Origin: a virus
Strand: one strand, 5' to 3'
IMG/VR virus record: IMGVR_UViG_3300035670_000396
Location: 1 to 45,146 of that record
DNA: 45,146 nucleotides
Part shown: in pieces, positions 3,889-44,448 of the stretch
Layout: every line of letters begins with the position of its first letter
Position numbering within the stretch: the stretch's first letter is position 1
The notes under the pieces: model-generated
The model's database searches: none
What the model saw: the letters and a program-made list of their open reading frames with translations, nothing else
What the model was told of the DNA's origin: nothing
Program-made: the position numbers and the translations under genes

Positions 3889-4761
3889 ATGGCTGACGCC
3901 CCTACTGTCGAACGAAATGAGTTGCTTCTTCGTGAAGCGACCAAGCTGATGGGCATGTTGTTCATCGGCAGGAGGGAGGCCAAAGCGGTCTTCTCCCGGG
4001 GCCAATGGATCGCCAAGCGCGAGAAGTTCACCCTGAGCGATTTCCGCAGCCACCTGTTCGGCGATCGCTGTCTCGGCGCCTACCTGCTCGACCGGGACTC
4101 CATGGTGCGCTGCATCGCATTCGACGTCGACCTGCTGAGCGACAACCCGGTTCCGGGCGAGCCTGGACAACGGCGCGGCGCTCCCTGGTACCCGATCCAC
4201 GACCTCGCCGACGACGGCGCAGTCGGCGAACTCGACCTTGAACTGCGTCGTGGCGACCTTGAGAAGGCACTCCACGACCCCGACGACGAGGCACATCGTT
4301 GGGCCTGCTCGCTCGTCCAGTCGGCGGTGATGATGATCAAAGACAAGGTGTACGAGACGCTCGGTCTCGTCAGCACCGTCATCGTCACCGGAGGCGGCGC
4401 TCACGTCTTCGTCCCGTTCGGTGAATTGATTCCCGCAGCGGAGGGCCGAGCGATGGCACACTCGGTCATGGACGGGTTGACGAACTTCCACCGCAAGAGC
4501 GAGAGCTTCTACACGAACAGCCTCGACGATCCCAGCATCGACATCGAAGTCTTCCCGAAGCAGGACTTCCTGACCGACCCCGAGTCGCTCGGCAATCTCA
4601 TCCGCTTGCCGTTCGGGATGCACGAGTGCGGGATGCGGACCTACGCCCTGAGCCCCAAGGCCACCCTCATCCCCTCGTGGTCGCTCCCGAAGATGAACTC
4701 CATGGATTGCCTGCGCCTCGCTGCTGCGTGCGTGAATCTCGAATGGCAAGTCGTCGAGTGA
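3889..4761 (+). CDS. Archaeo-eukaryotic-type primase (TOTE-like AEP)
   Basis: This 290-residue protein carries the motifs of the archaeo-eukaryotic primase superfamily, closest by eye to the group found in TOTE conflict elements. They are CIAFDVD (residues 75-81, metal-binding D79 and D81), TGGGAHVFVPF (167-177, H172), IEVFPKQ (219-225) and GNLIRLP (235-241). Such enzymes make primers, and some also extend DNA. The protein has the catalytic core only. The next gene supplies a zinc module and an ATPase, so the two probably form the phage primase-helicase. The ATG at 3889 has a good GGAAGGA site. No bacterial DnaG TOPRIM core is seen in the window. Confidence 0.8.
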   Translation: MADAPTVERNELLLREATKLMGMLFIGRREAKAVFSRGQWIAKREKFTLSDFRSHLFGDRCLGAYLLDRDSMVRCIAFDVDLLSDNPVPGEPGQRRGAPWYPIHDLADDGAVGELDLELRRGDLEKALHDPDDEAHRWACSLVQSAVMMIKDKVYETLGLVSTVIVTGGGAHVFVPFGELIPAAEGRAMAHSVMDGLTNFHRKSESFYTNSLDDPSIDIEVFPKQDFLTDPESLGNLIRLPFGMHECGMRTYALSPKATLIPSWSLPKMNSMDCLRLAAACVNLEWQVVE

Positions 4762-7064
4762 GCGCACCGGATTTCACCAACTTCGTTCACCGGTTCGACG
4801 AGGGGAAAGTCGGGCCAGCAGACATCGACCTGTTGCTCGACATCGTCTACCCCGACGACCCCGAGGCCAGGCAGCAGCGCCGGGACCGGGTGATCGTCGG
4901 CGGCGAACTCGTGAAGTTCCAAGCCGTTGGCCTCAATCGCCAGGCCGAGCAGACCTACCGCCAGCAACTCGTGGCCGCCAACGAGCCGCCGCCACCGCCC
5001 GAACCGATCACCGACCTCGATCCGCAGTTGCAGAAGGACATCCCTGATGAAGTTTACGATCGACCCGATTATCTATCTGAGATCAAGGCCCGTGTCGGCA
5101 TCGTGCAAGCGGTTCGCACTTGGGGCAAGTCTCAGGCTCAGATCAAGGACAACCGGACAGAGGGCGTCAAGGTGCGATGCCCGTTCTCGCACCATGTAGA
5201 CAACAAGCCGTCCGCGTGGGTGAACACGGCGAAGAACACCTGGGTCTGCGGCAAGTGCCAGGTCGGCGGAGATGTCGTCGACTTCTACGCCGCAGCGAAG
5301 CACGGGCTCCAGCCGAGCGACTTCCACCGGTCATCACGGTTCCATCAGATCATCAAGGAGATGGCTGAAGAACTGGGGATACAGATCGTCTCCACCTCCG
5401 ATGGAGGTTTCGTGGTGGAGGCGAGGACGGAGAGCTGGAAGTCGAACCTCACCGACAGCGACAAGTCGGACGACCAACCGGAGCCGATCATGCAGCCGGT
5501 GCCCACGACGATCGTGGAGCAGACACCGGATGGGCCGATCTCCTACGAAGACTTCTTCGAACCGGCCGTGCCGCGATCCCCCGAGGCTTTCGAGCCGATC
5601 ACGATCTCCGAGGACGACGTACTGCGTGGCCTGGAAATCGAGGAGGAGATCGACGACGAGGAGGAGCTGTTCGACACCAGCACGCTGCCGTCGTACGACT
5701 GGCGCCGTCTCGGCGTCAACGAGGACACGTTCCTGCACTCCTGGATGATTCAGGGCGAGCTGGAGCTGCCCTGGGTGCCGCCTGAGTTCCTGCTCGGTCT
5801 GGGGCTCCAGGCGATCGGGATCGCCTGCGGACACAAGACGACATCGTCGTCGTTCGGACTTCCGCTCAGCGCCTCCACCATGGCCGTCCTGGTCGGCAAC
5901 ACAGCATCCGGCAAGTCAACCGCCACCAACCGGCTCTCCAAGCTGATCGCCGAGGCGGTCGGCCCCAAGTGGGACCGCGACCTTGGAACCGGCGTCAAGA
6001 AGATCACCAGCACGGCGTCGGCGGAGGCGCTCACGCAGCGGGTCCGGACCGACATCGACGATCCGAGGGACCCGGACCGCCAGATGGAGGTCCCGACGAA
6101 TGCCTGGTACTTGGAGGACGAGCTGGCTCAGCTCATCTCCCGCTCCCGGCGCTCGGGCGGCGAGCACATCAAGCAGCGGATCATGCGGTTCCACGACTTC
6201 GTCAAGACGAAGGACGAGCCGGAGATGGTCGCCGAGGACCACTCGCTGACCGGCGGCTACCGCAACGTCCACGACACTTACTTCACGGCGACGTTCCTGA
6301 CGCAGAACGAGGCGGTGCGCGATCTCGCCGAGAAGAAAGACCTTGTCAGTGGATTCTTCAACCGCATGGTGTTCTTCATGGGGGCGAATCGGCAGCGTCG
6401 GCTGTTCTCGAATGTCACCGACATCGACCCACATCCCGACTACGTCACCAAGTACGAACGGATGTGGAAGGACTGCCAGCACCACGCTCGCGTCATCCCG
6501 TTCAACGATGCGGCGGCCAAACTGATCGACGATCATCCGCTGAACGACAAGCTCAACCTCCTGGCTCGCCGGAGCGACATGTTCGCCCGCTGGCAGATGA
6601 TGATGCTGCGCTTCTCGTTCATCCTGGCGGTCAACGAGAACGCCGCCGAGGTCGACGTGCGGCACATCAACGCCTCCTTCGACTTCGTGTCGAGCTACCT
6701 GATCCCGTGCGCTGGGCAGATGGTCGAACTCGCCAAGCCAGAGACCAGCGAGAAGAACCTGCTCGGCGCCAGGATCATCGAATTCCTGGAGACCCACTAC
6801 GACAAGCACGGGCAGTGGCCCGAGGCTCGCCAACTCCGCGGGCACCGCATGTGGCGCGAGGCTGACGCCGAAATCCGCAAGCGGGCACTCGATCTGCTCT
6901 ACTACTCGCAGGAGGTCGTCCAGGTGGGCCTCATCGAAGGGCCGTGGGGGACCGGTGAGCGCACTTTCCTGGTGCGGCCCGAGGGCGATTTCATCGTGTT
7001 CGCCGACGCTCACAACAAGAGATTCAAGTATGCCGACTTCTACGACAACCGAGCGTCACGTTAG
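4743..7064 (+). CDS. DnaG-type zinc module fused to P-loop ATPase (replicative helicase-like)
   Basis: This 773-residue protein has two clear parts. Residues about 140-185 form a CHC2-type zinc-binding module like that of DnaG: CPFSHH at 146, CGKC at 169-172, then GGDVVDFY. After an acidic linker comes a P-loop ATPase region from about 320, with Walker A GNTASGKST (385-393) and features reminiscent of DUF3987-type phage helicase or primase-helicase proteins. There is no TOPRIM domain, so it cannot be a DnaG primase itself. It probably works with the AEP primase encoded just upstream. I chose ATG 4743. GTG 4758, which overlaps the primase stop as GTGA, is an equally reasonable start. Confidence 0.75.
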   Translation: MASRRVSAPDFTNFVHRFDEGKVGPADIDLLLDIVYPDDPEARQQRRDRVIVGGELVKFQAVGLNRQAEQTYRQQLVAANEPPPPPEPITDLDPQLQKDIPDEVYDRPDYLSEIKARVGIVQAVRTWGKSQAQIKDNRTEGVKVRCPFSHHVDNKPSAWVNTAKNTWVCGKCQVGGDVVDFYAAAKHGLQPSDFHRSSRFHQIIKEMAEELGIQIVSTSDGGFVVEARTESWKSNLTDSDKSDDQPEPIMQPVPTTIVEQTPDGPISYEDFFEPAVPRSPEAFEPITISEDDVLRGLEIEEEIDDEEELFDTSTLPSYDWRRLGVNEDTFLHSWMIQGELELPWVPPEFLLGLGLQAIGIACGHKTTSSSFGLPLSASTMAVLVGNTASGKSTATNRLSKLIAEAVGPKWDRDLGTGVKKITSTASAEALTQRVRTDIDDPRDPDRQMEVPTNAWYLEDELAQLISRSRRSGGEHIKQRIMRFHDFVKTKDEPEMVAEDHSLTGGYRNVHDTYFTATFLTQNEAVRDLAEKKDLVSGFFNRMVFFMGANRQRRLFSNVTDIDPHPDYVTKYERMWKDCQHHARVIPFNDAAAKLIDDHPLNDKLNLLARRSDMFARWQMMMLRFSFILAVNENAAEVDVRHINASFDFVSSYLIPCAGQMVELAKPETSEKNLLGARIIEFLETHYDKHGQWPEARQLRGHRMWREADAEIRKRALDLLYYSQEVVQVGLIEGPWGTGERTFLVRPEGDFIVFADAHNKRFKYADFYDNRASR

Positions 7065-8490
7065 CCCTTGGACCAAGCGGTCCGAGGCGTGGGTCCTGAA
7101 CCCCGGCAAGAACATCGACATCTGCTTCGATCTGGGCATCTCACGATTCGTCTTCACGCAGAAGACCTATCAGTTCAAGCGCAACATGGCGATCGACCCG
7201 AAGAAGTTGATCGACTTCGCTGCCAGGGGGCGGCCCTGGCGGGTCATGCTCGTCGAGTATCACGCCAAGGTGACGCTCGTGTTCGACAGCACGGTCGGCT
7301 GGTCCCGCCCCGTGGCGGTCTACCCGAGCTGGTCGATTCGTGACGACACGCCGAACGCGCTGAGGAACCTCTGCCGCAACTACCCCAAGCCGGGCGAGAC
7401 GATCGGCAAGTTCTGGGGCGATTCCACGCCTTACGGCCCCGTCGAGGGGCAGGATCAGGTCATCGTCGTCCGCAACGCCCCCAAGGACAGGTTCGACTGG
7501 CAGACGGCGTTCTCGTTCATCTCCGACATGAAGCGTGTCTGGGGCATGGACTTCCACATGCACGGCAGCAAGAGCATCGCCCGCACGATCGGCATCTCGA
7601 TCGACTCGTTCGATCACCCCATCACGATCGACTGGGTCGACGGCAGGCCGCGTCTGCTGCTGCCGAACGGGCAGATCACTCCCGTCATGGACAACCGGTC
7701 CGACCACTGGGCGAAGCTGATCGGCGAGAACTTGGCCCAGTTCCGGCGGCTCAACGATCGCGCCGAACTCCGCCGGTTCGCCTACCGGTTCAACCTCAAG
7801 TCCTTCATCTGGGCCGAGCGCAACCAGGACCGCCTGTATGCTTTCCAAGGTCGCAATCCTGACGGGGAGGTGGACTACGAGTCATCCGACGAGGAGTGGG
7901 CGCCCGTGCTCTCTCGCTACCGACCTCGCCTCGCCGACGTGACCGACAAGTGGCTGTGTGACACTTGCACCATCTCCAACCGTTGTCCATACTCTCGATC
8001 AGGAGCTATTTGCATCGTGGACGGAACCGAAGCCTCAAAGTTGTCCGAGAAGTTCCGTTCGCGCAAGGCGACCGACATCGTCGAGGCACTCAGCGCTCTG
8101 CTGGGGGCCAACGCCGAGCGTCTTGAGAAGGCCATGGTCTCCGAGCAGGAGATCGCCGACCAGACCGGCCAGTTCAGGCTCTCCCCTCAGGTGACGACGC
8201 TCGCCAACGCCACATTCGACAGGGGAATCCAGATGGCCCGGCTCCTGGACCCCAACGTGGCGGCCCAGATGGCTGGGAGCCGCACCAACATCGCCATCCA
8301 GGCCAACGGTGCTGCCGCCATCGTCGCAGCAGCCACTCCACAGGAGATCATGGCCGGTGTCGCGGCCAAGCTGACGGAGTTCGGCATTCCACTTGCCGAA
8401 GCGACCCAAGATCAGGTCGAAGCCATTCTGCGCGGTGACGACCCTGTCGTCTATCGAGGGGCCATCGAGGCGAACACCACGGATTCATGA
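7030..8490 (+). CDS. Putative terminase small subunit with unusual N-terminal domain
   Basis: This 486-residue protein lies directly before terL and overlaps it by ATGA. The C-terminal third has a four-cysteine cluster (C310, C313, C319, C328, around CPYSRSGAIC) followed by helices, a layout I associate with small-terminase-like proteins of actinobacterial phages. The first 300 residues match nothing I recognise and are far longer than a usual TerS. They contain a recurring aromatic/basic pattern and an FHMHGSKSIARTIGISI segment. The gene starts inside the end of the helicase gene at ATG 7030. DNA recognition for packaging is the likely role of the C-terminal part. The N-terminal part could be a separate activity fused to it. 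Confidence 0.5.
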   Translation: MPTSTTTERHVSPWTKRSEAWVLNPGKNIDICFDLGISRFVFTQKTYQFKRNMAIDPKKLIDFAARGRPWRVMLVEYHAKVTLVFDSTVGWSRPVAVYPSWSIRDDTPNALRNLCRNYPKPGETIGKFWGDSTPYGPVEGQDQVIVVRNAPKDRFDWQTAFSFISDMKRVWGMDFHMHGSKSIARTIGISIDSFDHPITIDWVDGRPRLLLPNGQITPVMDNRSDHWAKLIGENLAQFRRLNDRAELRRFAYRFNLKSFIWAERNQDRLYAFQGRNPDGEVDYESSDEEWAPVLSRYRPRLADVTDKWLCDTCTISNRCPYSRSGAICIVDGTEASKLSEKFRSRKATDIVEALSALLGANAERLEKAMVSEQEIADQTGQFRLSPQVTTLANATFDRGIQMARLLDPNVAAQMAGSRTNIAIQANGAAAIVAAATPQEIMAGVAAKLTEFGIPLAEATQDQVEAILRGDDPVVYRGAIEANTTDS

Positions 8491-10316
8491 GGGACTTGCA
8501 TCAGGAGTTCATCTGGCTCCGAGATCATCCCGAGTTTGAGCAGCGGCCAGCGTCCATCCAGGAGTTTCTGGGGCCGGACTACCTCAACATCGAGAACAAC
8601 GTCCGGCCCGTTCTCAAGGAAATCCTGATCGACTTGTTCGGGACCGACACCAACCCGAACCGCATCGCCAAGTACCAGCGAGCCATCTTCACGGGCGGCA
8701 TCGGCGTCGGCAAGACCACGCTGGCGTCCGTGGTGATCCCGTACATGGCCCACTGGGTGCTGTGCCTCAAGGACCCGCAGGGCTACTTCAACCTGATGGC
8801 GGGCTCCCGCATCGCCTTCATGCAGATGTCGACGTCCGAGACGCAGGCCAAGGAGGTCGTGTTCGGCGACATCAAGGCCCGCATCGACCATTCCCCGTGG
8901 TTCAAGAAGCACTACCAGTACGACAAGAACTTCAAGAGCCAGTTCCACTTTCCCAAGGACATCTGGATCATCCCCGGCGACTCCGCCGAGACCACTTTCG
9001 AGGGCTACAACATCCTCGGCGGCATTCTCGACGAGGCCGACTCGCACAAGGTGACGAAGAACAAGGACTACGCCGACCAGGGGTACACCACGATCCACGG
9101 CCGCATCACCTCACGATTCGACGATCGGGGCTTCCTGCTCGTCATCGGGCAGATGAAGAAGTCGACCGGATTCGCCGCCAAGACCTATCGGCAGATGCGC
9201 CAGGACCCCGACGCCTACACGAGCCTCATCACGATCTGGGAGTCGATGGGGTGGCACAAGTACCTCAAGCCGGACGGCACCCGAGACTCGTTCTGGTACG
9301 ACACGCAGCGTTTCGCCTTCACGACGAAGGAGCTGGCCGAACTCCAGGGGTTCCCGGCCCACGTCCTGGAGGTCCCGAAGGTCTACGAGCGGGACTTCCT
9401 CAACTCGCCCCAGAAGGCACTCAGGGACCTGGCCGGGCGGCCGCCAGCGGTCAATTCGCCGTTGTTCCACGATCCGTCGAAGATTGAGGACGCCCGGAAT
9501 GCCTACCGGGAGCGCTACGGGGACTTCATCCCGGTCGATTCGCACAACAAGTTCAATGATCAGCTCGTCGCCAGGAACAGCGTGCCGCGGGTGGGCCACA
9601 TCGACATCGCATTCTCCCCGGACGGCGACGCGCTGGGGCTCGCCATCGCCCATGTGGCGGAGATCGTCAAGTACGACGGCGAGAAGAAGCCGTTCATCGT
9701 CTTCGATCTGGTGATGCGGATCGCCGCACCTCCGGGTCGCGAGCTGTACCTCGGCGACATCCGCCAGCTCATCTACGAACTCAAGTACACCCGCAAGTTC
9801 AACATCACCAAGATCACCACGGACGGCTTCCAGAGCACCGACATGCGCCAGCAGTTCCAGCGCAAGCGGATCATGACCGAGTTGCTGTCCGCCGACCGCT
9901 CCACCTTGCCGTACTTCGACCTGCATGACGCAATCGCCGAGGGCAGGGTCGCCATCCCGCCGTATCTCGTGCCGCTGAGCCTGGCCGACCCCACGCCGGT
10001 CGACATCGTCTACCAGGAGATGTCGCAGCTCCAGGACGAAGGCTCCAAGATCGAGCACCCACCGGACGGTTCGAAGGATGTTGCGGACGCAATCGCCTGC
10101 ACCGTTTCGAGCATCATGAACGATCCCAGGTTCCACCGACCGTCATCTTCTGGGAATCCAATAGGGGACTGGATGGGGGGTGGAGGTGATAGTAATGAAG
10201 GAATGGCCTCCTTCGGCTCGCACCCCGCCATCGTCGGTGGGCCGACGCCCAGGGCGCCGATAGCACCGCGAATATCAGATCCCACCCAATGGCGACCACC
10301 GACGAGGCGAGCGTAG
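8487..10316 (+). CDS. terL: Terminase large subunit
   Basis: This 609-residue protein is the DNA-packaging motor. The ATPase domain has Walker A GGIGVGKTT (70-78) and Walker B GGILDEAD (178-185). The nuclease domain, which cuts the concatemer, shows three acidic motifs: HIDIAFSPDG (D373), KITTDGF (D446) and KDVADAIA (D534). The length fits the family. It overlaps the putative small subunit by ATGA, and its TAG stop is immediately followed by the portal ATG. It is expected to dock on the portal at the empty procapsid. Confidence 0.93.
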   Translation: MRDLHQEFIWLRDHPEFEQRPASIQEFLGPDYLNIENNVRPVLKEILIDLFGTDTNPNRIAKYQRAIFTGGIGVGKTTLASVVIPYMAHWVLCLKDPQGYFNLMAGSRIAFMQMSTSETQAKEVVFGDIKARIDHSPWFKKHYQYDKNFKSQFHFPKDIWIIPGDSAETTFEGYNILGGILDEADSHKVTKNKDYADQGYTTIHGRITSRFDDRGFLLVIGQMKKSTGFAAKTYRQMRQDPDAYTSLITIWESMGWHKYLKPDGTRDSFWYDTQRFAFTTKELAELQGFPAHVLEVPKVYERDFLNSPQKALRDLAGRPPAVNSPLFHDPSKIEDARNAYRERYGDFIPVDSHNKFNDQLVARNSVPRVGHIDIAFSPDGDALGLAIAHVAEIVKYDGEKKPFIVFDLVMRIAAPPGRELYLGDIRQLIYELKYTRKFNITKITTDGFQSTDMRQQFQRKRIMTELLSADRSTLPYFDLHDAIAEGRVAIPPYLVPLSLADPTPVDIVYQEMSQLQDEGSKIEHPPDGSKDVADAIACTVSSIMNDPRFHRPSSSGNPIGDWMGGGGDSNEGMASFGSHPAIVGGPTPRAPIAPRISDPTQWRPPTRRA

Positions 10317-37547: not shown

Positions 37548-37979
37548 ATGACGGTCTACATTGCTCAAGCGTACGTCGCCTTCGACGGCGCGACGAACTC
37601 CGATGCCTGGGCGCTCGGTCAGGCGCAGTGGGTCAAGGACAATCTGCAAGTCCTCACCGGTCAGGCGCTCGTGGTCCCCGGCTCGGCCGGAGAGCGGTCG
37701 AGCTACTGCGTCGTCAGCGAGCTGAATCCTGACGGCACCTTGACCACTGTCAGCGCTTACCACGTCAACGACATCGGCGTGATCACCCAAGGTCTGCCGG
37801 ACGGTTCCGGTGGTCCGCCTCCGGCGACGGCTTGGGCGGTCGACACGGCCTACGCGATCGACGACACGGTCACCTACCCCGAGGCGAAGCCGAACGTCAC
37901 CTACCGCTGCTTGCAGGCGCACACGTCGCAGGCCGGTTGGGAGCCGCCGAACGTCCCGGCACTGTGGGTGGCGATCTGA
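37548..37979 (+). CDS. Protein with CBM5/12-type chitin-binding module
   Basis: The 143-residue product has an N-terminal part of unknown type and a C-terminal carbohydrate-binding module of family 5/12 (about 93-143): AWAVDTAYAIDDTVTY, YRCLQAHTSQAGWEPP and PALWVAI, with the family's Trp and HTS..GWEP marks. It probably binds N-acetylglucosamine polymers on the host wall or environmental chitin. It sits between fibre genes, so it is likely a tail-tip component. Confidence 0.72.
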   Translation: MTVYIAQAYVAFDGATNSDAWALGQAQWVKDNLQVLTGQALVVPGSAGERSSYCVVSELNPDGTLTTVSAYHVNDIGVITQGLPDGSGGPPPATAWAVDTAYAIDDTVTYPEAKPNVTYRCLQAHTSQAGWEPPNVPALWVAI

Positions 37980-41200: not shown

Positions 41201-41701
41201 TACTTGACCGGTGGCAGCGGCGTGCGGGTTGCGTCGGTGTGGGTGCATTGGGGCACGCTCTCCGACACCACCCCGACGTTCAACTGGTGGAACGCTGGCG
41301 GGTACTCAGCATGGATCGGCAAGTTCGAGCCTGCTGGTAGCGGAGGTGGTGCTTCTCCGCAGACTTGGACCGGCAACGCCGCAAGCATCCAGGTCGCGGC
41401 GACCTCGGGTTCGTTCACGGGCGCCGCCACCTGGACCGGCAGCGCCGCCAGCATTCAGGTCGTCGCCAGCTCCGGCGACTTCCTCAACTCGCTCGTCCCC
41501 AGCAACCTTGTCGCCACCGCGGTCGACGGGGACACCATCTCGCTCACCTGGGACGCCGTGACGGACGCGACCGGCTACGACATCGAGCGCGACGGATCGG
41601 TCATCGTCTCGGATCACCCGACGAACAGCTACACCGACAACGGGCTCAGCGCCAGCACATCTTACACTTACCGGGTGCGATCGGCAGGTGATTGGGCATG
41701 A
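38267..41701 (+). CDS. Large tail fibre with two lectin-like domains and WTG repeats
   Basis: The 1144-residue protein starts at GTG 38267. It has an N-terminal jelly-roll-like domain and two LamG-like domains introduced by TDDFNRADGDLGSNW (near 258) and TDDFNRANGAVGSNW (near 644), separated by another beta domain. Two short repeats of type TWTGNAASIQVAATSG follow at about 1032-1072. An FnIII domain ends the protein (about 1078-1144). It probably binds host sugars. The next fibre gene starts in the ATGA at its end, and repeats are shared with it. Confidence 0.7.
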   Translation: MAVSYTVRLNENVVANTSTGEGSGDYTSSGFATSEGTLLVLVISHDEQSGVLNVADIISRGANPTTAGITWTSWTDASYIDFSNWTAGVSVWIADSPGAGTGRTITQNPPDAWSDWDSHVNSIDVTVLEFAGAADAAAHLSGLAVAGYVYSASGSARDPGALSVTANSTPRPDSMMVTTFAGDGGTAGTPGTGFTELADRVESGNRFLKTHLQIREGSSTSTEVGWVGGDTAVSGGVYDYTVSYFEVMSAPNVIATDDFNRADGDLGSNWTSPSTMPVIVSNSVSASSALTAYDAHWSAASFDGDQWVQADVTVNDLGTLTRGRLTLCDEVYEIEWEGNASTVELSKSGAVQASTSLAFGTSTLRMEKVGGRITVYAGGVEILSWTDSSPVTTGSPGLGLYRAGASSSVTIDNFSAGDWTDPAGTLRFYPADNYGTTSGTSTVSNMSWNTGDIIVVMSGQGSDANTALVSNLPTNANLTFTNLDVVDASGNNSDARFDYAIAGSAQTFQTISQTTNDNSHTGTVAWVYTPLSPGSAIIRTVYPYGSIVEYGDNTTQTLNVAEGSIVLYGMVDWNADTTTQTLATGSGTPTKRADSYNAGTWGWVFGDWVGTTAGATAFGLTSYAGLAASQMFVEISERTIVATDDFNRANGAVGSNWTAALNESISLIASNVLQGDASTGNTSYWSADTFDNDQWAEADATLGTVYSEVHVDVRSSGSGRYMFAWTTDASGTYDIIYYNGSTFTSIATAKTGVGTTGTRKLRVEVVGTTITGYVDGVEQVTATNSGLTSGSPGLGQYRDNNTGGTLDNFSAGDWTDRTVDFYVGDALDYGDTSLDFSPDPATGDILITAISESSASGAPANPDISDNMGGLWNMEATHSWASRRKTTVWVKDDWTSASPTETITYSGDQDKVSVGIVVKGAQSAATYEVYESSGSASDFTPTLTQCGAQDLHIMFLFFENANQANITSPPDGWLKVGDYLTGGSGVRVASVWVHWGTLSDTTPTFNWWNAGGYSAWIGKFEPAGSGGGASPQTWTGNAASIQVAATSGSFTGAATWTGSAASIQVVASSGDFLNSLVPSNLVATAVDGDTISLTWDAVTDATGYDIERDGSVIVSDHPTNSYTDNGLSASTSYTYRVRSAGDWA

Positions 41702-44448
41702 CCGCTCCCACCGTCAGGGCGTACGCATCGCCGACCAACGGCACCGACGCCGCCCCGGCCAAGACCGTCAACCAGCCCGCAGGAGTGCAGACCGGCGACC
41801 TGCTGATCGCCTTCGCTGGCGGTGACGGCACCACGGCGTTCACGGCCTCACCCGGCAACGGGTGGACCCGGCTCACGGCCGACACGGCCACCTCGTCGGT
41901 GTTCTCGATCTACGCCAAGATTGCCTCGGGCACCGACGCCCTGTCAATCGCAGCGCAGAACAACCAGGACTACTCGGTCGTCATGGTGGCGGTCACGACC
42001 GGCACGCACGGCGTCACGAACGTCTCGACCGACCTCGTCATCCCGACCACGGCCACCGGTACGACCGGCAACGCCGACCCGCCCGCCTCGGGCACGGTGG
42101 CGTCGAAGGACTGGCTGGTGTTCGCATCGACCGGCGTCGACTTCACCAACGCCGCCGACGAGATCACGGCGTACCCGACCAACTACTCGGCCGGGGTGCT
42201 CACCAAGTCGGCCAGCTCGGTGTCCAGCGTCGGACTCGGCGTCGGGCACCGGGCGCTCACCGCAGCGACCAGCGAAGATCCCGGCACGTTCACCAACACG
42301 TCACGGGAGTGGCTCGCCAACACGGTCCTCGTGCCGTCCCCCTTGGTCAGCTCCCCGCAGACCTGGACCGGCAACGACGCAGCCGTCCAGGTCGCAGCGA
42401 CGTCCGGCTCCTTCACTCCCGGAGCTGTCACCTGGACTGGCAGCGACGCGGCCGTCCAAATTGCAGCGACGTCCGGCTCGTTCACTCCTGGAGCTGTCAC
42501 TTGGACCGGCAACGACGCAGCCGTCCAGGTCGCGGCGGCATCCAGCTCGTTCACTCCCGGAGCTGCCACCTGGATCGGAAACGACGCAAGCGTTCAGGTC
42601 GCCGCGACCTCTGGCGACTTCACCGGAGTCGACCCCGGCCAGACCTGGACCGGCAGTGGCGCAGCCGTCCAGGTCGCAGCGACCTCGGGCGAGTTCCGGC
42701 GCATCTCCAACTGGTCGCTCCCGGCGAGCGCCACCACGACGGGCGGGTCCTCGCCTCAGACCTGGACGGGCAACGCCGCAAGCGTTGAAGTCGCAGCGAC
42801 TTCTGGCTCGTTCAGCGCAGGCGGCACCCCGCAAACTTGGACCGGCAACGCCGCGACCGTCACCATCGTGGCGGCCTCGGGCGCCTTCATCCCCGGTGGA
42901 GCGACCTGGACCGGCAGCGGTGTACTCGTCGGGATCGTGGCTCAGAGCGGCGCCTTCATTGTCGGCGTCCCGCCCCCTCCGACACTGGTGCTGGACTCCA
43001 AGGACTCGGATCAGATCAACATGTCCTGGAGCGCCGTCTCCGGCGCTACGGGATACGACATCGAGCGCAACGGTTCCATCATCGTCTGGAACCACCCGAC
43101 CACCTCCTACAGCGACACCGGACTCGACCCCTCCACGCAGTACACGCACCGGGTGCGCGGCGTCTTCGGCGGCGAGCCTCCGTTCCTGACTTCGGTCGAC
43201 GTTGCCAACAAGCGACTCCTCGACCAGTACGGCAACCCTTGGTTCGGCGTGGGCGATGCCCCGTGGTCGCTGGTCGGTCAGCTTTCCGAAGCGAACATCA
43301 CGGTCTACATGGAGGCGGCTGCCGACAAGGGCATCAACATCATCATGTTCTCGGCGCCGGAGCCGTACTACACCGACAACACTCCGGCGTACCGGAACAG
43401 CGAGGGAACCGGCTACCTGCCCTTCACCGGAACAAACTTCCAGTCCTCGCTCAACAACGACTACTGGGTCACGGTCGACCACGCCATTGCCGAAGCGAAG
43501 CGACTCGGCATCACCTGCCTGATCTGCCCGCAGTACATCGGGTACGGCGGCGACGGGTGGGAGACTGACCTCGTCAACACCTACAACTCCAGCCCGTCGA
43601 GCCTGACCACCTACGGGCAGGCGCTCGCATCCCGGTACGGGTCGGAGACGAACATCGTGTGGCTGATCGGTCACGACGACAACAACATCACGGCCACGTT
43701 GAAGGCGGCCTCCAAGCTGATCGCCGACGAGCTTCCGGCCAACCACCTGCTCGCACCCGGCGGTCACCATGACTTCGCCGACGGTACGACGTCATGGGCG
43801 TCGTCTGGTATCACGTTCGACTTCGACACGAACTACGACTACGGAGAGACACCGGGAGCCGACACGGCGTCGACATACGCTTCGCGGACCACGATGTTCA
43901 TTGAGGGCAAGTACGAGCAAGAGCAATCCATGGGCGTCGGCAACGCCGTGCTCCGGTGGCAGATGTGGGAACCCCTGCTGGCTGGTTCGTGCGGCACCAT
44001 CATGGGCAACAACCCGCGCTGGCACTTCCAATCCGGCAAGGAGCTGTACGGCTTCAGCGGAACGTGGCAGGACTCGTTCACCAACGCCGCCTACAACGAC
44101 TCCACTGTCCACCTGTCGCACCTGGCTGCGTTCATCTCCGCCAACCCGAGCATCCTCACGGCGACACCGGACACGACCAACACGTTCCTGACTTCGCCGA
44201 CAACCGACTACGCACGATTCTCGACGACGATCGGCGTGGCCTACCGCACCGCCAACACCTCGACCACGCTCGACACGACCGAACTGGGCGGGACCGGCAA
44301 CGTCAAGATCAGGCGCTTCGACCCGACCAGCGGGAGCTACACGACCGTGGCGGCATCCGAAGCGCAGAACGCTGCCCGCTCGATCACTTACCCTGGAGCG
44401 AACGCCGCTGGCGGCACCGACTGGGTCTACATCGTGGAGCTGGTCTAA
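41698..44448 (+). CDS. Tail fibre with GH140/DUF4038-like glycosidase domain
   Basis: The 916-residue protein (ATG 41698) has four parts. An N-terminal fibre domain covers about 1-215. About nine WTG...VAATSGSF repeats cover 221-424. An FnIII domain lies at 425-498. A C-terminal part resembles the DUF4038/GH140 apiosidase-like barrel (about 500-830), starting LLDQYGNPWFGVGDAPWSLV and NIIMFSAPEP. Candidate catalytic acids are D660 or D661 in WLIGHDDNN and E736 in FIEGKYEQE. The last 80 residues form a beta-rich domain. It is likely a depolymerase acting on a host surface polysaccharide. The catalytic residues are inferred from family patterns. Confidence 0.72.
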   Translation: MTAPTVRAYASPTNGTDAAPAKTVNQPAGVQTGDLLIAFAGGDGTTAFTASPGNGWTRLTADTATSSVFSIYAKIASGTDALSIAAQNNQDYSVVMVAVTTGTHGVTNVSTDLVIPTTATGTTGNADPPASGTVASKDWLVFASTGVDFTNAADEITAYPTNYSAGVLTKSASSVSSVGLGVGHRALTAATSEDPGTFTNTSREWLANTVLVPSPLVSSPQTWTGNDAAVQVAATSGSFTPGAVTWTGSDAAVQIAATSGSFTPGAVTWTGNDAAVQVAAASSSFTPGAATWIGNDASVQVAATSGDFTGVDPGQTWTGSGAAVQVAATSGEFRRISNWSLPASATTTGGSSPQTWTGNAASVEVAATSGSFSAGGTPQTWTGNAATVTIVAASGAFIPGGATWTGSGVLVGIVAQSGAFIVGVPPPPTLVLDSKDSDQINMSWSAVSGATGYDIERNGSIIVWNHPTTSYSDTGLDPSTQYTHRVRGVFGGEPPFLTSVDVANKRLLDQYGNPWFGVGDAPWSLVGQLSEANITVYMEAAADKGINIIMFSAPEPYYTDNTPAYRNSEGTGYLPFTGTNFQSSLNNDYWVTVDHAIAEAKRLGITCLICPQYIGYGGDGWETDLVNTYNSSPSSLTTYGQALASRYGSETNIVWLIGHDDNNITATLKAASKLIADELPANHLLAPGGHHDFADGTTSWASSGITFDFDTNYDYGETPGADTASTYASRTTMFIEGKYEQEQSMGVGNAVLRWQMWEPLLAGSCGTIMGNNPRWHFQSGKELYGFSGTWQDSFTNAAYNDSTVHLSHLAAFISANPSILTATPDTTNTFLTSPTTDYARFSTTIGVAYRTANTSTTLDTTELGGTGNVKIRRFDPTSGSYTTVAASEAQNAARSITYPGANAAGGTDWVYIVELV

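Follow-up and report, generated by a model that had tools for sequence, protein, structure and literature searches.

A two-gene phage module pairing a CAPP-like archaeo-eukaryotic primase with a DnaG-type zinc ribbon on a predicted helicase: a probable two-chain primosome

To characterize a putative split replication system of phages, we analyzed a pair of overlapping genes in a 45-kb virus record, IMGVR_UViG_3300035670_000396 (45,146 nucleotides, referred to here as the window), which carries phage packaging and structural genes. Gene 1 codes for an archaeo-eukaryotic primase (AEP), while gene 2 codes for a protein with an N-terminal zinc ribbon of the bacterial DnaG type followed by an ATPase and predicted helicase (Table 1). 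The reading frame of gene 2 has its earliest listed start at a GTG at 4626; the ATG at 4743 gives the protein length in Table 1 and fits the residue numbers of a preliminary description made from the sequence alone. The short overlap of the two genes probably indicates translational coupling. The reading frame coordinates and the landmarks named in that description (D79/D81, H172, IEVFPKQ, C146, C169, C172 and GGDVVDF) are all present in the sequence. It had listed three of the zinc ligands correctly, but missed the fourth, H151.

Table 1. Position of the gene pair, its domains and the adjoining packaging genes in the window
Feature	Position	Strand	Basis
Gene 1: AEP (CAPP-like Prim-Pol), 290 aa	3889..4761	+	Pfam, PHROG, AlphaFold2
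Overlap of gene 1 and gene 2, 19 nt	4743..4761	+	from sequence
Gene 2: CHC2 zinc ribbon and DUF3987/MCM-like AAA+ ATPase, 773 aa, predicted helicase	4743..7064	+	Pfam, PHROG, model
DnaG-type CHC2 zinc ribbon, residues 111-215, ligands C146/H151/C169/C172	5073..5387	+	PF01807
AAA+ ATPase core, residues ~340-560; Walker A K391, acidic E460, R541	5760..6422	+	invariant residues
Terminase small subunit	7060..8490	+	phrog_6902, E 1.7e-35; start overlaps gene 2 stop
Terminase large subunit	8487..10316	+	phrog_2, E 3.5e-18

The product of gene 1 matched the Pfam family PF22548, AEP-TOTE, with 46.5 bits (E 4.6e-12; cut-off 27) and the PHROG family phrog_5362, 'DNA primase' (E 1.7e-23), and Pfam identified no PriCT, zinc or helicase domain in it. 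Motif I is formed by D79/D81, motif II by H172 and motif III by E220 within IEVFPKQ, and a GNLIRLP sequence is also present. These four residues are invariant across 52 AEP relatives, among a total of 19 invariant columns, and all 52 relatives match PF22548. As far as the sequence tells, the active site is intact. A profile of the 52 relatives identified the structures of the CAPP Prim-Pol domain (E 6e-33) and no other structure below 0.001. The same domain was the best match in the PDB to an AlphaFold2 model of gene 1 with a pLDDT of 92.8 (7nqe/7p9j, TMt 0.78-0.81). For 7p9j_C, from the CAPP primer initiation complex, Foldseek gave a TMt of 0.81, a root-mean-square deviation of 2.6 and an E of 3.6e-12, and the match to a LigD domain was weak. 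With conserved DxD, sxH-type and acidic motifs on a Prim-Pol fold, the gene 1 product is an AEP. The term 'TOTE-like', used in the preliminary description, goes back to the name of the Pfam family only: the genes lie outside any TOTE context, and among solved structures the CAPP Prim-Pol domain comes closest.

Gene 2 was similarly assigned by profile, conservation and structure. Its product matched the CHC2 family PF01807 (29.6 bits; cut-off 24.9) and phrog_5311, 'helicase' (E 6.2e-55). The zinc ligands are spaced C-x4-H-x17-C-x2-C, whereas the matched DnaG structure 2au3 has C-x2-H, and are conserved among 45 partner relatives (C146 in 45/45, H151 in 44/45, C169 in 43/45 and C172 in 45/45). 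A profile of these relatives detected the DnaG structures 2au3 (E 1.5e-5) and 1d0q (E 4e-4). We considered a chance match to CHC2 and rejected it given the conservation of the ligands. Pfam found no match to TOPRIM or the DNAG_N core in the gene 2 product, and the stretch between the zinc and ATPase domains (residues ~230-310) is predicted to be disordered. Within the ATPase and beyond it, K391 (Walker), E460, R541 and R616 are invariant in the 45 relatives, with R541 a likely finger-like arginine. The gene 2 product itself has no above-cut-off match to PF13148 (DUF3987), but 41 of the 45 aligned relatives match this family, with E up to 0.01, and the structure model (pLDDT 84.0) resembles MCM helicases and viral DUF3987 proteins in Foldseek. 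Family homology and the modeled fold therefore place the ATPase, by prediction, in the DUF3987 type, and the invariant K391/E460 together with the MCM-like fold predict that it is a helicase. We also considered the pair as one broken gene, and rejected this since each frame is intact and the two are conserved as distinct genes. The CMP1 and GMA2 proteins were examined as possible CHC2-TOPRIM-DUF3987 ancestors and neither has a CHC2 or a TOPRIM domain; thus an origin by loss of TOPRIM is not demonstrated. Overall, the profile and structure checks bear out the preliminary description in its domain assignments: an AEP-type catalytic chain and, on a separate chain, a CHC2 zinc module without TOPRIM that is joined to a DUF3987-type P-loop ATPase.

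To define how closely the two genes are linked, we collected 77 viral loci using the AEP as query and 56 loci in a separate search using the partner, and pooled them non-redundantly by protein. Because the partner-first search did not require the presence of an AEP, it is an independent test of linkage. In the fetched loci an AEP is located upstream on the same strand for 69 out of 69 distinct zinc-ATPase proteins; 68 of these pairings were made by script and the 69th (L062/L121) has a frame-broken AEP. Of the 74 standalone AEPs followed by over 2.3 kb of sequence, 72 have the zinc partner downstream (the exceptions are L016 and L084), and the gap between the two genes has a median of about 8 nt. 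A search of genome contigs recovered 3 loci only, indicating that the family is mainly viral, and a plasmid search returned CHC2 matches only. An example of a fused counterpart is found in L072 (7528-9735), where AEP, PriCT1 and DUF3987 form a single chain, which argues that the AEP and the DUF3987 ATPase are partners. In L034 (7920-9818) the CHC2 domain is still beside the AEP, but a RepA-like AAA_25 ATPase has taken the place of the DUF3987 one. Two further observations concern variants of these genes. On the contig shared by L062 and L121 (L062 7983-10875) the AEP runs across two frames and the CHC2-ATPase partner is also split into two open reading frames, reflecting either decay or sequencing error. 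Standalone CHC2 proteins of 125 aa are present on viral contigs (L139-L143) with no AEP of the gene 1 family nearby.

The pair is also present in isolated phages. The AEP query matched 117 isolate records and the partner query 107, counted separately for each gene, and all of the matches are from Gordonia, Rhodococcus or Tsukamurella phages. Both genes were present in every matching isolate record that we opened. Monty, Chelms, GTE7, ReqiDocB7, Perlina and TIN2-4 have the same phrog_5362 and phrog_5311 families in the same order, with the zinc ribbon and the DUF3987-type ATPase, at 21-31% identity to the pair of the window; the AEP and partner are gp7 and gp4 in Monty and Orf102 and Orf97 in GTE7. 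The pair is thus real and conserved, and not private to the window genome. Annotation of the partner in the isolates varies between 'helicase', 'DNA primase', 'DNA binding protein' and 'hypothetical'.

To explore the role of the pair in replication, we searched 17 related records, many of them 71-84 kb, for other replication proteins. While the controls were positive, none of these records had a match to DNAG_N, PolIII-alpha, PolA or DnaB_C (PolB and divergent polymerases were not included in the search), and CHC2 was found solely within the pair. The complete phages Chelms and ReqiDocB7 both carry annotations for a Pol III beta clamp and an additional helicase, and the stretches that we read have no annotated polymerase catalytic subunit. 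With no DnaG core, DnaB, PolA or PolIII-alpha found in these near-complete relatives, a primosome of the phage itself is the best interpretation of the pair, and this together with the conserved linkage upholds the proposal of a replication pair in the preliminary description. We consider it probable that the two proteins form a two-chain phage primosome, in which the zinc ribbon helps the AEP in trans and primers are passed to a host polymerase. The CAPP-like AEP would synthesize short primers on single-stranded phage DNA, while the partner, as a ring-type AAA+ helicase, would unwind the duplex and its N-terminal zinc ribbon would touch the unwound strand. The ribbon may then aid the AEP in trans, in the choice of template sites or in retention of the primer, as detached T7-like zinc domains do, and the two proteins may form a physical complex. 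Extension of the primer would fall to a polymerase for which no gene is visible in the phage, probably host Pol III, to which the primer would be handed over, with the phage beta clamp used where present. For Rhodococcus cluster CR phages, DNA Pol III alpha is reported next to a primase/polymerase and a helicase (PMC13313380, 2026), and therefore the use of a host polymerase need not hold everywhere.

Within the primosome reading, we give action of the zinc ribbon on the AEP in trans somewhat better than an even chance. It is favored by the near-obligate linkage of the AEP and the zinc-ATPase, by the finding that in a T7-like primase the zinc and RNA-polymerase domains cooperate even when physically separated (PMC10557236), and by human PrimPol, where a UL52-type zinc finger is required for or stimulates priming (PMC4027207; PMC10345425). 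A broader form of this proposal, in which the whole phage lineage as a rule has a primase of mixed ancestry and a DnaG-type ribbon on the helicase chain picks priming sites in trans for an AEP core on the other chain, we put at a little under even. Several points weigh against the ribbon acting in this way. The catalytic cores of CAPP and human PrimPol prime without accessory domains, CAPP doing so well (PMC10345425), and the zinc module may thus not act on the AEP at all. Trans action is also disfavored by L137 (2378-4236), on a prophage-like contig that has an integrase: here a family-like CHC2 protein precedes a RepA-like ATPase on a chain of its own, and the 10-kb locus yielded no AEP. Finally, one to several small genes separate the AEP and its partner in some isolates.

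An alternative is that the two genes are a primase/helicase pair in which the zinc ribbon serves the helicase, for gripping single-stranded DNA, loading or docking to host replication proteins, while the AEP primes unaided. The ribbon is covalently part of the ATPase chain, and in L137 the neighbor of CHC2 is a RepA-like ATPase while no AEP was found nearby, both as this alternative would have it. However, the full zinc-ATPase gene is always accompanied by an AEP in the fetched loci and DnaG-type ribbons are known for template recognition during priming (PMC10557236), and we regard service to the helicase as unlikely. That the AEP is chiefly a repair or gap-filling polymerase, like the LigD or Prim-PolC domains, rather than a replicative primase seems very improbable. 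A weak profile likeness to the LigD Prim-Pol (2iru, E 0.0027) and matches to PF21686 in 7 of the 52 members would fit such a role, but the AEP is much nearer in both profile and fold to CAPP, a proven primase, it is tightly linked to a replicative-type ATPase, and other primases were not found in the relatives. We give even less credence to a component of a TOTE conflict system or other defence, suggested by the Pfam name of PF22548, a family matched above its cut-off, and by weak PADLOC matches (PrimPol and RTasDnaG-like). Ordinary phage primases also pass PF22548 (L079), neither protein has PF22709 or another TOTE domain whereas the TOTE-like L085 has PF22709, and the pair adjoins terminase genes in virus genomes.

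The pair can be compared with several known systems. CAPP (PDB 7nqd-7nqf, 7p9j) shares the Prim-Pol core fold and motifs with the gene 1 AEP, but gene 1 has no TPR, RT or C-terminal domain and scored 59.9 bits against the CAPP equivalog NF040561 (NCBIfam), below the cut-off of 200. No Cas1-Cas2 was seen in the window, where the neighbors identified are phage packaging genes and not every small open reading frame was scanned. The CAPP paper cites a Gordonia phage homologue, YP_004934804.1, and raises the possibility that CAPPs originated from phage Prim-Pols of this kind (PMC8211822); we find that this protein is Orf102 of GTE7. The PrimPol-PV1 supergroup and PrimQH/all3500 combine an AEP, a PriCT or Zn-binding domain and DUF3987 in one chain (PMC5862659) and, as in the pair described here, an AEP, a zinc-type module and a DUF3987 ATPase serve as replication parts of mobile elements. 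In the phage pair, however, these are divided over two chains with a zinc module of DnaG type on the ATPase chain. The comparison is made at the level of domains; the PrimPol-PV1 and PrimQH families themselves are defined by an arginine motif. In T7 gp4 and Twinkle the zinc ribbon is N-terminal to a ring helicase, as in gene 2, and a T7-like zinc domain can act in trans, as proposed for the pair, but the catalytic core of T7 gp4, Twinkle and DnaG is TOPRIM while the pair has an AEP instead. The CCPol-MP-Cch2 operon of SCCmec (PMC7581432) likewise divides primase and helicase between genes of one operon on a mobile element, with a helicase that binds iterons, but CCPol is an A-family polymerase rather than an AEP. 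We found no published account of a split AEP and CHC2-ATPase pair in the open-access literature. The preliminary description regarded the pair as the best candidate for an undescribed system, which goes too far for genes present in more than 100 sequenced phages and an AEP branch named in the CAPP paper; it is the split AEP and CHC2 layout that appears to be new, and it is common to the whole phage group.

The surroundings of the pair differ between phages. In the window (4743-10316), and likewise in L006 and L007, gene 2 and the terminase small subunit gene overlap on one strand, while in the Gordonia isolates that we examined, the pair and the terminase genes are oriented divergently and small genes lie between the two members of the pair. 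Replication and packaging genes therefore seem to form a single unit in the window/L006/L007 clade and divergent blocks in the Gordonia isolates. Upstream of the pair, an iteron-like cluster at 841-1160 (~320 bp) has 12 copies of TGCAGCC/GGCTGCA, a GC minimum and two long inverted repeats; shuffled controls had at most 4 copies of the heptamer. At the equivalent position near the contig end, L007 (481-800) carries 12 copies of another heptamer, GTCAACA; shuffles for the two clusters reach 3-4. In related phages, a long noncoding region that contains inverted repeats is reported close to a genome terminus (PMC4563357). It is a reasonable guess from the sequence that the cluster of the window, close to the genome end, acts as an origin or control region, and any tie to the primase pair is speculative. 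Elsewhere in the window, a plus-strand frame at ~1770-2103 has a thermonuclease-like sequence, judged by eye (VERVIDGDTVRM...IRLIDVHAPEL), and an Rfam scan gave no match. Domains of the apiosidase-like glycosidase, fn3 and Collagen_bind_2 types occur in a large protein (41692-44448), and a CBM_5_12 carbohydrate-binding module in a small one (37548-37979); both proteins may be tail or lysis enzymes.

The DnaG primases of bacteria are unrelated to the archaeo-eukaryotic primases. If the proposed primosome is correct, primase parts would be exchangeable between the superfamilies, with a DnaG zinc reader working with an AEP catalytic core, and the Gordonia phages provide cultured systems in which the contribution of a primase zinc domain can be tested. 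The assignment of the two genes also helps to mend conflicting annotation in more than 100 phage genomes, in which the name 'primase' is given to one gene, the other or both. Finally, the pair bears on the idea that CRISPR-associated Prim-Pols arose from phage primases.
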